A stretch of DNA of 64,000 nt. It comes from Roseateles sp. SL47 (GTDB lineage: Bacteria > Pseudomonadota > Gammaproteobacteria > Burkholderiales > Burkholderiaceae_C). Shown piece after piece: positions 1,794 through 39,438 of this stretch; within the stretch, counting starts at the first letter, position 1, and every line of letters starts with the position of its first letter. The stretch spans positions 2,914,001 through 2,978,000 of the forward strand of contig NZ_CP113068.1 of NCBI RefSeq assembly GCF_026625885.1, given 5' to 3'. The notes under the pieces are model-generated. The model did not search any database and was not told the origin of the DNA. It worked only from the letters and a program-made list of their open reading frames with translations. A program made the translations under genes and the position numbers.

Positions 1794-2696
1794 TCAATAC
1801 CGGGGCGGGCTGCTGAGTTCCTGCCAGAGCTCGTCGTAGATCCGGTAGCGGGACGGGCTGATCTTGCCAGCCTCCACCGCCGTCAGCACCGCACAGCCGG
1901 GCTCATGCCGGTGGCTGCAGTTGTGGAAGCGGCATGAGCCCAGGTGGGGCTTGAAATCGGCCATGTGGCTGGCCAGTTCCGGCGCCGGAATCTGACGCAG
2001 ACCGAATTCCTGAAACCCCGGCGAGTCGATCAGCGCGGTGTTGCGATGCCCGTCCATCCAATACCACTGGGTGGTGGTGGTGGTGTGGCGGCCGGAGTTG
2101 AGTGCTTGGGAAATCTCGCCCACCTGCGCGCCGGCATCCGGCACCAGCAGGTTGATCAAGGTGCTCTTGCCGGTCCCGCTAGGGCCCAGCACCAGCGTGG
2201 ACTGGTTCTCCAGCAGCGGCATCAGTGTGTCGCGCGCTTCGTCGGGACGGCCTTTGAGGCTCAGTTCCAGCACCCGCTGACCCATGGCCTTGTAAGGCGC
2301 CAGCCGCTGCCGGGCCGCTTCCGCCTGAGGCAGGTCGGTCTTGTTGAGCAGGATGTCGGTGGTGATGCCGGCACTGTCCGCAGCGATCAGGGCCCGCGTC
2401 AGCTGGGATTCGGAGAACTGCGGCTCGGCGGCCACCAGCACCAGCAGGCGGTCCAGATTGGCGGCAAAGCTCTTGGTCTTCCATTCGTCCTGCCGGAACA
2501 GCAGGTTGCGACGAGGCTCCAGCTTCTCGATGACGCCTTCATGCTCGCTGCTGCGCTGCCAGCGCACCCGGTCGCCCACCACGCAATCGCTTTTTTTGCC
2601 CCGGGTCAGGCAATGCACCCGAACACCGTTGTCGTCTTCCACCACGTAGTGGCGGCCGTGTCCACGGACCACCAGGCCGATCTGGTTGCCTTTCAT
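1794..2696 (-). CDS. rsgA: Ribosome small-subunit-dependent GTPase A
   Basis: RsgA (YjeQ/EngC) is a late 30S-subunit assembly factor that hydrolyses GTP on the ribosome. The 300-residue protein has the family's layout: an N-terminal OB fold, then a circularly permuted GTPase with G4 (NKTD, about residue 118) before G1 (GPSGTGKST, about residues 170-178) and G3 (DSPGF), then a C-terminal zinc knuckle with Cys/His residues at about 253-267 (CRFHNCSHRHEPGC). Its ATG overlaps the stop of the upstream M48 protease gene by 4 nt (ATGA), so the two are translationally coupled. Confidence 0.97.
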   Translation of the reverse strand: MKGNQIGLVVRGHGRHYVVEDDNGVRVHCLTRGKKSDCVVGDRVRWQRSSEHEGVIEKLEPRRNLLFRQDEWKTKSFAANLDRLLVLVAAEPQFSESQLTRALIAADSAGITTDILLNKTDLPQAEAARQRLAPYKAMGQRVLELSLKGRPDEARDTLMPLLENQSTLVLGPSGTGKSTLINLLVPDAGAQVGEISQALNSGRHTTTTTQWYWMDGHRNTALIDSPGFQEFGLRQIPAPELASHMADFKPHLGSCRFHNCSHRHEPGCAVLTAVEAGKISPSRYRIYDELWQELSSPPRY

Positions 2697-4024
2697 GCAG
2701 CACCGCCGCCCAGGTGGCCCAGGCGCGCGCCCATGCCGCTGAGCGCGGCAATGGCGGCCAAACGTTCACTGGCGGGCGGATGCGAATAGTAAAAGCGGGC
2801 GAAGACCGGGTCAGGGGTCAGCGTGCCGGCATTGTCCTCATGCAGTTTCAGCAGGGCCGCGCTGAGGTCCTTGCCGCTGGATTGCTCGCAGGCATAGGCA
2901 TCCGCCTCGAATTCATGCTTGCGGGACCAGTACGACATCAGCGGCGTCAGGAAGAAGGTGAAGGGCGGCAGGGCCAGCATGAACAGCAGCAGCGCCAGCG
3001 CATCATTCGGGGCGGACAGGCTGGGCCGCACGCCCAGGCCCAGATAAAACTGCGGCTGCGCGCTCAGGAACCCCAGCAAAGCAAAACCCGCCAGGCTCAG
3101 TGCAAACATCAGGACCATGCGCTTGAGCACATGGCGGCGCTTGAAATGCCCCAGTTCATGGGCCAGCACCGCTTCCACCTCCGGCGGGTTCAGGCGCGAC
3201 AGCAGCGTGTCGAAAAACACCACCCGCTTGGATGCCCCCAACCCGGTGAAATAGGCATTGCCATGGGCGGAGCGACGGCTGCCGTCCATGACAAAGAGGC
3301 CCTTGGCCGCAAAGCCGCAGCGGGCCATCAGCCCTTCCACCCGCTCGCGCAGGGTGGCGTCGGACAGCGGTTCGAACTTGTTGAACAGCGGTGCAATCAG
3401 GGTGGGGTAGAGCACCAGCATCAGCAGGTTGAAACCCATCCACACCGCCCAGGCCCACAGCCACCAGGCCTGGCCGGCGGCGCCCATCAGCCAGAGGATC
3501 ACTGCAGCGATGGGCAGGCCGACCACGGCACCCACCAGCAGTCCCTTGAGGCCGTCCAGCACAAACAGCCGCAGGGTGGTGCGGTTGAAGCCGAAGCGCT
3601 GCTCCAGGCGGAAGGTGTTGTAGAGCGTCCAGGGCAGGTCCAGCAGGCCGGAGAGCAGGGCAAAGGCGGTCAGCAGGCCGAGCTGATAGCCCATGGTGCC
3701 CAGCATCGGCAGCAGGGACAACATCCACTGGTTGATGAGGTCGAGGCCGCCCAGCAGCGTCCAGCCCACCAGCAGCGCGGTGTCCCAGGCCAGATGCAGC
3801 GTGCCGGCCCGGTTGCGGGCCACGGTGTAGTCCGCCGCTTTCTGATGGGCGGTCAGGGGCACGGTGCCCACAAAGGCGTCCGGTACGGCCGCGCGGTGCC
3901 GCGCCACATGGCGGACCTGCCGGCTGGACAGCCACAGCTTGGCCAGGAAGGACAGGACCACCGCCGCCACAAATATCAGGCTGAGCGCGAGGGCGTTCAC
4001 GGACCAGGAATCGGAAATGTGCAT
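2693..4024 (-). CDS. M48 family membrane metallopeptidase (Ste24/CAAX protease type)
   Basis: A 443-residue integral membrane zinc protease. It has several hydrophobic segments in the N-terminal half, the zinc motif HELGH at residues 289-293 followed by a basic FKRRH patch, and a downstream glutamate-containing HEFEADAYA motif, both diagnostic of Ste24-type M48 enzymes. In bacteria these are thought to act in membrane-protein quality control. The ATG at 4024 was chosen because the family's N-terminal membrane helix starts just after it. The upstream frame is open but compositionally unlike the family. A TACACT box lies 6 nt before the ATG and no Shine-Dalgarno is visible. The gene is coupled to rsgA. 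Confidence 0.9.
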
Positions 4025-22417: not shown

Positions 22418-22751
22418 CCTCGATTCAATGACGCGCCAAATGCCAGGCTCAAGCTCCGCTGGATTCAATGCAATGAATCTGCCAGTAGATTGTGTCCAGT
22501 TGCGTCATTGGTCATTGAAAAAGGTCCATTCCTCCCAGCAGAGGGCAGGCTATCGCTCATTGAAGATCGCCGTAAGTTGCCAACTGTTGCGGCTTGACAG
22601 GGGCGCGTTGAATGCACAACGTGGACACTCCGTTCAGCGTTCACGTAGCCCTGGGAGGGGTGATCGTCCGCTTCTTACTCATTGGTAATGAAAGGCTTCA
22701 CCATGAAGATGACTTCTCTTTGCCAGGCACTCCTGGCCGCATTGCTCATTG
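22405..22751. repeat. Cluster of TCATTG/CAATGA hexamers upstream of the endoglucanase gene
   Basis: Eight exact copies in either orientation were found, starting at 22405, 22426, 22471, 22505, 22512, 22557, 22679 and 22746. A near copy (CAATGC) lies at 22466. By chance about 0.2 would be expected in this length. The last copy lies just inside the coding region. The repeats are plausible binding sites for a regulator of cellulose degradation. Confidence 0.6.
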
Positions 22752-24478
22752 GTCAAACCGGCCTGGCCATGGCCGACGTGGCACCGCTTTCCGTCAGTGG
22801 CAACAAAGTGCTGGCCGGTGGCCAGCCCGCCAGCTTCGCGGGCAACAGCCTGTTCTGGAGCAACACCGGCTGGGGCGGTGAGAAGTACTACACCGCCAAT
22901 GCAGTGAGCTGGCTGAAGAATGACTGGAAGTCGCGCGTCATTCGTGTGGCCATGGGCGTTGATGAAGGCGGTGGTTATCTGCAGGACCCCACCGGCAACA
23001 AGGCGCGGGTCAAGGCCGTGGTGGATGCCGCCATTGCCAATGACATGTATGTGATCATCGATTGGCACAGCCATCATGCCGAGGACTACCGCTCGCAGGC
23101 GGTGAGCTTCTTCGAAGAAATGGCGCGGACCTATGGCAAGAACAATCACGTCATTTATGAGGTCTACAACGAACCGCTCAACATCTCTTGGAGCGGCACC
23201 CTCAAGCCTTATGCCCAGGCGGTGATCAACGCCATTCGCGCCATTGACCCGGACAACCTGATCATTGTGGGCACACCGAACTGGTCGCAGGATGTGGATG
23301 TGGCCTCGCGTGACCCGATCAGTGGCGCCAACATTGCCTACACCCTTCACTTCTATGCCGGCAGCCACGGGCAGTGGCTGCGAGACAAGGCCCAGACCGC
23401 GTTGAACAACGGTGTAGCCCTGTTCGTGACCGAATGGGGTTCGGTGGGCGCCAGTGGCGACGGGGCCGTGGCCACCAGCGAAACCTGGGCCTGGGTGGAT
23501 TTCATGAAGGCCAAGGGCATCAGCAATGCCAACTGGGCCTTGAATGACAAGGCCGAGGGTGCTTCGGCCCTGGTGTCGGGGGCCAGCGGGCAGGGGGGAT
23601 GGTCCGCCAGTCAACTCACCCCTTCCGGCACGCTGGTCAAGCAGATCATCAGCGGCTGGCCCGCTGCACCGACCCCCACGCCGGGCTGCACCCGGGTGGC
23701 CATTCCCGCGCAGATCCAGGCCGAGACCTATTGCAACATGTCCGGCGTGCAGGTGGAGGCCACGACGGATACGAATGGCGGCAGCAATGTCGGCTACATC
23801 GAGACCGGCGACTGGATGACCTATGACGTCAATGTGCCGGCAGCCGGCAGCTATGTCGTGAAGTACCGTGTGGCCAGTGCATCCGGCGGCGGCATCATTC
23901 AATTGGAGCAGGGCGGCGGCGGTAGTGTCTATGGCACCGTCAACGTGCCTTCCACAGGCGGCTGGCAGACCTGGACCACGGTCACACAGACCGTGTCACT
24001 GCCGGCAGGCCAGCAGACGCTGGGCCTGCTGGCCAAGTCGGGCGGGTTCAACATCAACTGGCTGGACATCAGCCGTCCGGGTGACCCGGTGGATGGCGGC
24101 ACTCTCATCCAGGCAGAGAACTTCGACGCCATGAGCGGTGTGCAGACGGAAGCAACCACCGACTCCGGCGGCGGGTTGAATGTGGCGTATCTGGATGCCG
24201 GCGACTGGCTGTCTTACCCCACCGTCAACATTGCGACTGCGGGTACCTACACCATTGAATATCGGGTGGCCAGCCTGAATGGCGGCGGCACGCTTCAACT
24301 GGAGGAGGCGGGCGGCAGCGTGGTGTATGGGGCGGTGAACATTCCGGCCACCGGGGGCTGGCAGAACTGGGTGACGGTCAAGCACACGGTGACACTGGCG
24401 GCCGGTCAACGCAAGTTCGGCATTGCCGTTCGCAATGGCGGCTACAACCTGAACTGGTTCCGTGTCACCAAGTCCTGA
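22703..24478 (+). CDS. Secreted GH5 endoglucanase with two CBM6 modules
   Basis: A 591-residue extracellular cellulase. A Sec signal peptide covers residues 1-24 (ends GLAMA). The GH5 TIM barrel (about 25-315) has the proton donor in VYNEPL (E157) and the nucleophile in VTEWGS (E244). After a short Pro/Thr linker come two tandem CBM6 domains (about 330-455 and 463-591), each beginning with an IQAE motif and containing a GDW motif. ATG 22703 was chosen because AAAGG lies 7 nt upstream; ATG 22688 is an alternative with no ribosome-binding site. The gene stands alone behind a repeat-rich control region. Confidence 0.93.
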   Translation: MKMTSLCQALLAALLIGQTGLAMADVAPLSVSGNKVLAGGQPASFAGNSLFWSNTGWGGEKYYTANAVSWLKNDWKSRVIRVAMGVDEGGGYLQDPTGNKARVKAVVDAAIANDMYVIIDWHSHHAEDYRSQAVSFFEEMARTYGKNNHVIYEVYNEPLNISWSGTLKPYAQAVINAIRAIDPDNLIIVGTPNWSQDVDVASRDPISGANIAYTLHFYAGSHGQWLRDKAQTALNNGVALFVTEWGSVGASGDGAVATSETWAWVDFMKAKGISNANWALNDKAEGASALVSGASGQGGWSASQLTPSGTLVKQIISGWPAAPTPTPGCTRVAIPAQIQAETYCNMSGVQVEATTDTNGGSNVGYIETGDWMTYDVNVPAAGSYVVKYRVASASGGGIIQLEQGGGGSVYGTVNVPSTGGWQTWTTVTQTVSLPAGQQTLGLLAKSGGFNINWLDISRPGDPVDGGTLIQAENFDAMSGVQTEATTDSGGGLNVAYLDAGDWLSYPTVNIATAGTYTIEYRVASLNGGGTLQLEEAGGSVVYGAVNIPATGGWQNWVTVKHTVTLAAGQRKFGIAVRNGGYNLNWFRVTKS

Positions 24479-38084: not shown

Positions 38085-38385
38085 GAGCGATCCGTGGTGA
38101 ATCCAAATAGGCCAAAAGCCATAACCTCTTCATTCTAGGAATCGGCGCTCACATTTTTTAGATTCAAAGGATATTCACAAATCCCTGCGTCGGTAAAAAA
38201 TCACATGCGAATTGCAAATGGGCCCCGATGGAGCAAATAACAAGATGCCGGTCGACTTAAGTTGTCCGGCCTTTGGGTCGCCTTATACACCGGAGGGTCT
38301 TCATGTCAGTGATTTCATATTTATCAATCCGATTGCCGATTCGTGCGTTTTGCGTCCACAATATGTCATTTGGTGGTTGTCGGAT

Positions 38386-38399
38386 GTGAAGTTCTTCAC
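38386..38399. promoter_or_regulatory. Dyad GTGAAGTTCTTCAC, candidate operator
   Basis: A 14-bp inverted repeat (6-bp arms) about 90 bp before the riboswitch aptamer, in the AT-rich part where the promoter driving the riboswitch transcript should lie. No matching -10/-35 pair was identified with confidence. Confidence 0.35.
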
Positions 38400-38473
38400 G
38401 TTGCCAAATATTGCTTTGCGGCGCCGCACAAGAAGTCCTTGTTGCGTACGGATGCAGCCACTACAGTCCGTCA

Positions 38474-38582
38474 CATCAGGGCACACCCGAGCGAAAGCCG
38501 GGGTCGCAAAGCCTCCGGTCTACCACCGGGCACGCTCCCTCACGGGGGTGCCGGGTCACGATAGCGGGGTTGCCAGACCTGA
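38474..38582 (+). ncRNA. Cyclic di-GMP-I riboswitch aptamer (GEMM-I), upstream of the fliE operon
   Basis: The sequence carries the GEMM-I core in order. AGGGCACACC opens the first stem (38478 onward), followed by a GAAA tetraloop within GCGAAAGC. Next come the near-invariant GGGGTCGCAAAGCC joining strand, CTCCGGTCTACC with a variable GC-rich arm, and a closing AGCGGGGTTGCC. TCAGG (38476-38480) can pair with CCTGA (38578-38582) as P1. The G, A and C residues that contact c-di-GMP in the Vibrio Vc2 structure have counterparts here. It lies on the strand of fliE, whose start is about 520 nt downstream, so it probably gates the rightward flagellar operon. Confidence 0.85.
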
Positions 38583-38588
38583 GTCTGC

Positions 38589-38609
38589 GAAGCACGTGCT
38601 GCGTGCTTC
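38589..38609 (+). promoter_or_regulatory. Hairpin directly after the riboswitch, candidate expression platform
   Basis: Perfect 8-bp stem GAAGCACG/CGTGCTTC with a TGCTG loop, starting 7 nt after the aptamer's closing strand. There is no T-run after it, so it may act as an anti-terminator partner or protect the RNA rather than terminate directly. Confidence 0.45.
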
Positions 38610-38625
38610 CAAGGCACATGCCTGC

Positions 38626-38644
38626 CAGGCCCCACCCGGGCCTG
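38626..38644 (+). terminator. Second hairpin after the riboswitch, possible terminator
   Basis: Perfect 7-bp GC-rich stem CAGGCCC/GGGCCTG with a CACCC loop, followed by TTGTGA. The stem strength suits an intrinsic terminator, but the T-tract is poor; Rho involvement is possible. Confidence 0.35.
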
Positions 38645-39016
38645 TTGTGACCTGCTTGGCGTTCGCCAGGGTGAGCCCGTCTTGACACTTGAAGTGACAC
38701 AGGACGGTCAAGCCATGCAGCAGACGATTTCTTCCTCCCCTGTCTTGTCAGCGCCGCAGCGGTCGCCGTCGTCTCGACGCGCCTTTCGCTCGAGCCTGCG
38801 GATCCATCGCCGGCAGTGCCAGGCGATGGCCCCACGGACGGCGGCGGGGATGAAGGGGCGCTTGCTGCGAAAGTGCCGTCCTCGTGAAACCCCCATCGCC
38901 CGTCATCGGCATATTGTTTGCAAATGTGTCAGTCTTAACTAAACAGACATATTTACATCGCGCAGGCTGATTGAGGCAGTTTGCGGTCGAGAAATACCCC
39001 GATTCTCTGAAAACCA

Positions 39017-39031
39017 TCCGGATATTCCGGA
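39017..39031. promoter_or_regulatory. Dyad TCCGGA-TAT-TCCGGA upstream of fliE
   Basis: A 15-bp element with 6-bp arms, 72 bp before the fliE start. It contains GGATATTC, a word that recurs 85 bp upstream of fliM on the other side of the gap. Candidate regulator site. Confidence 0.4.
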
Positions 39032-39102
39032 GGGATTGGCTCAGCAAAAAATTAGTATCTGACCGGTTCTGAAAATGTACCCATCTATTCAGGGAGCTTG
39101 AT

Positions 39103-39438
39103 ATGTCAGTGTCGGCGATTCAGTCCTCCGTGGCCCAGATGGCCATGGAATCACTCATGAGTCAGGACGCAGTCCGCCTTCAAAATGAAGCGCAGGCACT
39201 CGTTGGTGCCTCCAGCGATAACCCTGGAGGGGGCGGGTTCGAGCAGATCCTGCGCCGGGTGGATGACAAGGGCCAGGCCGCCAGCGAACGCATGGAGGCG
39301 GTGGAGCGGGGCGAGAGTGATGACCTGGTGGGCGCCATGCTGGCGAGCCAGGAAGCCAGCCTGTCCTTCTCGATGCTCATGCAGGTGCGCAACAAGGTGG
39401 TGGGCGCCGTGGATGAGCTGATCAAGCTCCAGCTCTGA
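39103..39438 (+). CDS. fliE: Flagellar hook-basal body complex protein FliE (lateral type)
   Basis: A 111-residue periplasmic adaptor joining the MS ring to the proximal rod, secreted by the flagellar export system. The C-terminal helix (ASLSFSMLMQVRNKVVGAVDELIKLQL) is the conserved FliE tail. The start at 39103 follows an AGGGAG ribosome-binding site. It is the first gene of the rightward arm fliE-F-G-H-I-J and lies downstream of the c-di-GMP riboswitch. Adjacent fliF follows after 16 nt. Confidence 0.95.
   Translation: MSVSAIQSSVAQMAMESLMSQDAVRLQNEAQALVGASSDNPGGGGFEQILRRVDDKGQAASERMEAVERGESDDLVGAMLASQEASLSFSMLMQVRNKVVGAVDELIKLQL

Follow-up and report, generated by a model that had tools for sequence, protein, structure and literature searches.

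In Roseateles sp. SL47, a class I cyclic-di-GMP (GEMM-I) riboswitch, supported by sequence comparison, lies in the region controlling a lateral-type flagellar operon; it probably represses the right arm of the flagellar cluster by way of an anti-aptamer platform. The region is part of a stretch of 64,000 nucleotides, called the window here, and positions refer to the window unless a genome or another locus is named. The class I reading is supported by three observations: the score of a covariance model, a position conserved in 10/10 closely related and 25/80 more broadly sampled fliF loci, and a promoter motif at the 5' edge of the aptamer.

The Rfam model RF01051 matches positions 38470-38577 on the + strand with 57.1 bits, above the gathering threshold of 35; the E-value in the 64-kb window is 1.6e-8, and the alignment spans the whole model, positions 1-87. 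The initial annotation, made from the letters alone, had already read a class I c-di-GMP riboswitch before a lateral-type flagellar operon and had proposed scoring it with this model. The score bears the reading out, and the five GEMM-I core motifs quoted there are all present in the window sequence. No other Rfam family reached its gathering threshold in the scan of the 64-kb window. A second known RNA family in the platform was considered and rejected, with the matches besides RF01051 in a permissive scan of 38085-39110 lying far below their cut-offs (E of at least 1.1).

As for the ligand, the base equivalent to G20 of Vc2 is a G in the RF01051 alignment (aGGC vs GGGC), in the Vc2 numbering that we assume for the window aptamer. 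This base has a role in ligand type and is an A in cGAMP-type variants, according to the available portions of PMC9262584 and PMC6274999. A G at this place points to c-di-GMP and not to cGAMP, and we infer c-di-GMP as the ligand. The aptamers before these operons mostly deviate from the consensus of the model at two places that are conserved elsewhere, GGCACACC and GUCGCAAAG, with GGCAAACC in L120. These departures would suit an aptamer with a different cyclic dinucleotide as its ligand, for example 3',3'-cGAMP, or one that no longer binds a ligand, but the G at the G20 equivalent and a core that is near-invariant, both in the 10 orthologues and over many lineages, make either case very improbable.

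The place of the c-di-GMP aptamer is conserved among relatives. A set of 60 genomes, own included, contains 10 fliF orthologues of at least 70% identity (70-100%), and each of the 10 has an RF01051 match on its own strand, at a distance of 0.8-1.0 kb upstream. Other fliF-like places (28-35% identity) in 16 genomes of the genus have no match within 200 kb on the contig. On a broader scale, a riboswitch stands upstream of fliE in 25 of 80 named fliF loci, which were collected with a FliF profile and searched by coordinates (7 + 36 loci) or scanned directly (37 loci), with at most 89 first-look candidates per genome scored in the 36-locus set, where weak matches may be lost. One of the 80, L112, starts at fliF, so the absence of a riboswitch there carries no meaning. 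The 25 carriers include Roseateles, Mitsuaria, Pelomonas, Paucibacter, Methylibium, Aquabacterium and Ramlibacter, as well as Rubrivivax gelatinosus, Zoogloea and a Rhodocyclaceae genome. The riboswitch did not show in any of the Massilia, Duganella, Janthinobacterium, Variovorax and Acidovorax loci within the 80. Searching 399 genomes of the order for FliE at E 1e-20 gave a match in 4, too few for use.

We placed the riboswitch as a trait on a FliF tree of 80 rows, composed of 78 loci, the window and G022, with L112 and L148 left out. The trait requires 3 changes, against a mean of 22.5 after shuffling, and none of 500 shuffles had as few, although near-copies inflate this clustering test and the tree, a quick one, leaves 25 of its 77 inner branches open and is unsure for some of the long ones. 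Loci with and without the riboswitch also differ in how far fliE stands from the left arm. The median gap is 980 and the smallest value 716 with the riboswitch (24 of 25 measured), versus a median of 355 and a largest value of 612 without it (53 measured), so the two ranges do not overlap, gene starts being approximate in both groups. Finally, L120 has two back-to-back riboswitches, at 2663-2750 (-) and 3103-3190 (+) of that locus, one per flagellar arm. A leader ORF that contains MIEPAVSSKP comes after each copy, in front of fliE in one case and of the left arm in the other. By this comparison, the aptamer and its place before the flagellar operon can be regarded as established with high confidence.

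The first flagellar gene of the right arm is fliE, at 39103-39438 (TIGR00205 64.5 bits, cut-off 30), on the + strand like the riboswitch, an orientation already given in the initial annotation. To its right are fliF, fliG, fliH and fliI, with FliG under its curated cut-off. Further right there are FliD-, FliS-, YscP/FliK-, FliL-, FliA-, MotA-, MotB/LafU- and FlgM-like genes, of which the FliD, YscP, FliL and LafU matches are under their cut-offs, and the FliA match is under the PRK12427 cut-off and over the TIGR02479 cut-off. Then come FlgN, a glucosaminidase-domain gene, FlgD, three FlgE/F/G-type genes, FlgH, FlgI and FlgK. The left arm is divergent and contains FliM/FliN-like genes, FliP over its cut-off, and FliR, FlhB and FlhA slightly under theirs. 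A GH5 cellulase-domain gene with CBM6 and CBM35 domains is found at 22682-24478, about 7 kb to the left of flhA.

This cluster looks like a second, lateral flagellum. The lateral label comes from the LafU-type match of the MotB-like gene and from the presence of another fliF in the genome. The best MotB match is NF005273, "putative lateral flagellar export/assembly protein LafU", with 197 of 383 bits, below its cut-off. The other fliF locus is at G000 5502025 and is 35% identical, fliF being the one gene looked for. Furthermore, the PRK13386 FliH and PRK07196 FliI matches, to what we take to be lateral-type families, are over their cut-offs.

The comparison of loci also brings out a candidate promoter. 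A conserved sigma70-like motif, TTGTTG-17-TACAGT (38439-38467, +), is located at the 5' edge of the aptamer on the same strand as fliE, which lies 525 nt beyond the aptamer, and it would place the transcription start at about 38474. The TTG of the -35 element and the entire -10 element are invariant in 10/10 close loci. A simple promoter scan did not list this motif, which has 7/12 matches and is under the scan cut-off. Further upstream there is a CRP-like palindrome, TGTGA-N6-TCACG (38385-38400, +), centred at about -81.5 from this start and fitting 9 of the 10 positions of what we assume to be the CRP consensus. Over the 28 riboswitch loci, among which the L089 row is invalid, TACAGT is present at -12/-13 in 18 and the best CRP-like match falls at -80.5 to -82.5 in 16, with p < 0.05 for 12 of these 16 sites in mononucleotide shuffles. 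The binder of the palindrome might be a c-di-GMP or a cAMP receptor.

Downstream, the platform contains a small hairpin, CAGAC-CTGA-GTCTG (38574-38587, +), which is invariant in the 10 orthologues and so gives no covariation test. It is followed by two hairpins on the + strand, H1 (GAAGCACG/CGTGCTTC, 8 bp, 38589-38609) and H2 (CAGGCCC/GGGCCTG, 7 bp, 38626-38644). These are the two perfect hairpins that had been noticed in the window sequence, and both keep 100% standard pairs in the 10 orthologues, with 3/8 pairs of H1 and 3/7 pairs of H2 changed on both sides. A weaker 4-bp hairpin between them is 90% paired in the same set. Over the named structure as a whole, 98.8% of pairs are standard, and changes on both sides occur in 6 pairs, located in H1 and H2. 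Its covariation was reached by 0/500 shuffles on four measures and by 2/500 on a fifth. The extent first assigned to the element, 38474-38644, is too narrow: counted from promoter to switching part, the region spans about 38385-38652.

Termination at these hairpins is a different matter. The initial annotation had suggested looking for ligand-dependent 3' ends by term-seq, implying intrinsic termination near 38610-38650, and this part was not supported. A simple consensus scan of 38085-39102 found no terminator-like site on the + strand. H2 has no U-tract, its 3' side continues with TTGTGACC, and the scan showed no hairpin plus U-tract of the Cd1 type in the platform. Intrinsic termination at H1/H2 was rejected, as the sole terminator-like site sits on the opposite strand. 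GGTCACGATAG was also considered as a partner of GTTGTGACC and rejected, since the orthologues vary in the upstream strand and not in the downstream one.

Another proposed pairing, P1 as TCAGG/CCTGA in the initial annotation, is doubtful. It is absent from the Rfam model, and its 3' strand is missing from more distant riboswitches such as those of L120, L103 and L137. The pairing is without variation in the 10 close loci, and it would occupy what we take to be A18, G19 and G20 in Vc2 numbering, at the ligand site. TCAGG/CCTGA is more likely a competitor pairing, or one that does not form.

A candidate for the switching part is a helix between the platform and the aptamer core. The strand directly 3' of H2, TTGTGACC (UUGUGACC, 38645-38652, +), may serve as an anti-aptamer strand, with 8 pairs possible to the core strand GGTCGCAA (GGUCGCAA, 38502-38509, +). 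Neither strand varies among the 10 close loci, which leaves no covariation to score. Across 29 sequences (28 right-arm riboswitches and the second copy in L120), the strand at the H2 place pairs with the core over at least 6 bp in 22; the other 7 fall short of this or, like L098, have no H2 to place the strand by. L104 and L107 retain 4 pairs. The anti-aptamer strand varies across lineages with pairs kept, as UUGUGACC, UUGUGGCC, UGCGACC, UGCGGCU and GCGACCC. In the 22 pairing sequences, about 3-9% of the stretches of the same leader pair equally well with the core. Against the helix, whole-leader shuffles give p <= 0.05 in just 7/29, and the best unconstrained duplex of the core lands on the anti-aptamer strand in just 17/29.

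Minimum-energy folds, started at 38470, four bases ahead of the inferred start, contain the switch helix in 5/10 close loci. In another 4, the window's own included, UGUGAC pairs instead with the 5' end of the RNA, and the fold of G010 has neither pairing. The putative switch helix is, in our view, supported but not proven.

The next feature is a Shine-Dalgarno-like AGGACGG (38701-38707, +) with a 75-codon leader ORF (ATG 38715), the two spanning 38701-38942, where the start was picked by eye. From this ATG to fliE there are 385 nt. Neither the length nor the sequence of the leader ORF is conserved, and there is no sign of coding conservation. Leader ATGs picked by eye in 28 loci are 106-165 nt past the aptamer, and the frames run for 5 to 124 codons without sharing a conserved peptide. 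Most of these ATGs are preceded by a Shine-Dalgarno-like stretch, L137 and L144 having no good one. The fliE start is approximately 330-630 nt past the aptamer in the 28 loci, several of these starts being those of the longest open frame only.

These elements can be combined into a mechanism. Transcription would begin at about 38474, from a sigma70-like promoter of its own that is possibly regulated by the CRP family. Without ligand, UUGUGACC (38645-38652) would pair within the binding core, its partner there being GGUCGCAA (38502-38509). With c-di-GMP, the aptamer would fold and the anti-aptamer strand would be set free. The freed strand and its neighbours would most likely mask the start of the leader ORF, and the lost leader translation would result in less fliE and downstream genes across the 385-nt stretch, for example through Rho action or decay. 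The leader-ORF step has the status of a proposal. The whole reading, a c-di-GMP-I riboswitch that uses an anti-aptamer helix and a leader-ORF step to lower right-arm expression from fliE onward, is the one we lean towards. A wider version is put forward tentatively, as a possibility that falls short of likely: a terminator-free, c-di-GMP-controlled leader-ORF attenuator that would gate the whole second flagellum, inherited by many Burkholderiales and their relatives, with one lineage having it on both divergent arms.

In terms of sign, we used predicted folds, with the whole leader folded alone as a proxy of the ligand-bound state and the part behind the sequestered strand as a proxy of the unbound state. 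The unbound proxy has the more open AUG region in 16/29 sequences, and the bound proxy in 7/29. The Shine-Dalgarno region is more open in 7 unbound vs 3 bound of the 29, with mean accessibility nearly equal between states (0.37 vs 0.39). In L089, L098 and L120, the freed strand or a neighbour is able to pair with the Shine-Dalgarno region of the leader. These counts lean weakly to an OFF switch. c-di-GMP usually opposes flagellar gene expression, and the preferred sign, with the right arm shut off, would agree with the biology and weakly with the structure predictions. OFF appears to be the likelier sign.

The opposite sign would mean that c-di-GMP raises the right arm, with lateral flagella made at high c-di-GMP, for example at first surface contact. 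L091 and L126 carry a copy of UUGCGACC just before the leader AUG, able to pair with the core, and this would mask the start in the absence of ligand. The 7 sequences with a more open AUG region in the bound state would also fit an ON switch, and closely similar cyclic-dinucleotide aptamers occur with either sign, as stated in the available part of PMC9262584. However, 16/29 predictions point the other way, c-di-GMP is generally against flagellar gene expression, and the known flagellar case, Cd1, is an OFF switch (PMC9262584, PMC11477304, portions available). We regard an ON switch as distinctly unlikely.

Repression of the right arm by the riboswitch further depends on how fliE is transcribed. 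A separate flagellar promoter downstream could mainly drive fliE, and the riboswitch would then control the leader ORF alone or be a small RNA. The 525 nt between aptamer and fliE and the poorly conserved leader sequence would be compatible with this. Likewise, a sequence search found an inverted repeat before fliE, AAATGTGTC-N15-GACATATTT (38922-38954, +), which occurs once in the genome and is not expected by chance in the window. It has one site each in G000, G001, G003 and G009 and none in the other 12 genus genomes searched. A GAGGG..TTTGCC-like motif upstream of fliE, defined post hoc, is present in 8/25 loci with the riboswitch vs 0/53 without. On the contrary, there is no consistent sigma54-like site, and a shared sigma54 promoter before fliE was rejected, with matches scattered in 9/28 loci. 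The riboswitch is kept before the same operon across the FliF tree, and L120 has its second copy, with its own leader, before the left arm, which fits control of the arms. A separate promoter as the main driver of fliE is rather unlikely in our judgement; control of the right arm by the riboswitch is likely, with a presumed effect on fliE.

If this is right, the link from c-di-GMP to a second flagellar system of betaproteobacteria would be made by RNA in place of a protein regulator, and the precedent in the literature examined, within the text available, comes from clostridia. The riboswitch is present in one part of the FliF tree and lacking in others, so lateral flagella with and without RNA control offer a ready natural comparison. 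Furthermore, the platform, with its leader ORF and without an apparent terminator, amounts to a testable claim on GEMM-I switching in high-GC bacteria.

Within the same genome there are three other RF01051 sites, L001, L003 and L004 (G000 425236, 2015197 and 3753385). They are of the same family and stand 60-92 nt before open frames that, by eye, resemble a sedolisin-type protease, an FhaB-like exoprotein and an FhaC-like transporter. The window site differs from them in its downstream genes, and a 24-nt sequence from its aptamer end and platform has a single occurrence in the genome, with up to 2 mismatches allowed.

Among known systems, Vc2 of Vibrio cholerae has the same aptamer class and controls tfoY. 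The window element has a different target, and its platform is conserved, with covarying hairpins and a leader ORF. Vc2 is termed translational in the available part of PMC9262584. Bc1 of Bacillus thuringiensis resembles the window element in its long expression platform; unlike it, Bc1 is reported with two Rho-independent terminator sequences (PMC11218506, available portion).

Regarding lateral flagella, Roseateles depolymerans is one of the species listed with a LafA homologue in a paper on a putative lateral flagellum in Burkholderia dolosa (PMC5773237), and a term search of that paper's main text found neither "riboswitch" nor "c-di-GMP". Among the open-licence papers that the literature searches brought up, none was recognised as describing the window element.

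Lastly, Cd1 stands before the flgB operon of Clostridioides difficile and is a class I OFF switch acting through transcription termination, as described in the available portions of PMC9262584 and PMC11477304. The two elements share a class I aptamer before a large early flagellar operon, and the OFF logic proposed here is the same. Cd1, as presented there, terminates transcription, whereas the window element shows no terminator-like site on the + strand in the simple scan and has a putative anti-aptamer strand after H2. The window element is also unlike Cd1 in its leader ORF before fliE, in its lateral-type betaproteobacterial operon and in the presence of another fliF locus. On the evidence of the texts available, Cd1 is the nearest functional precedent for the putative switch in the window.
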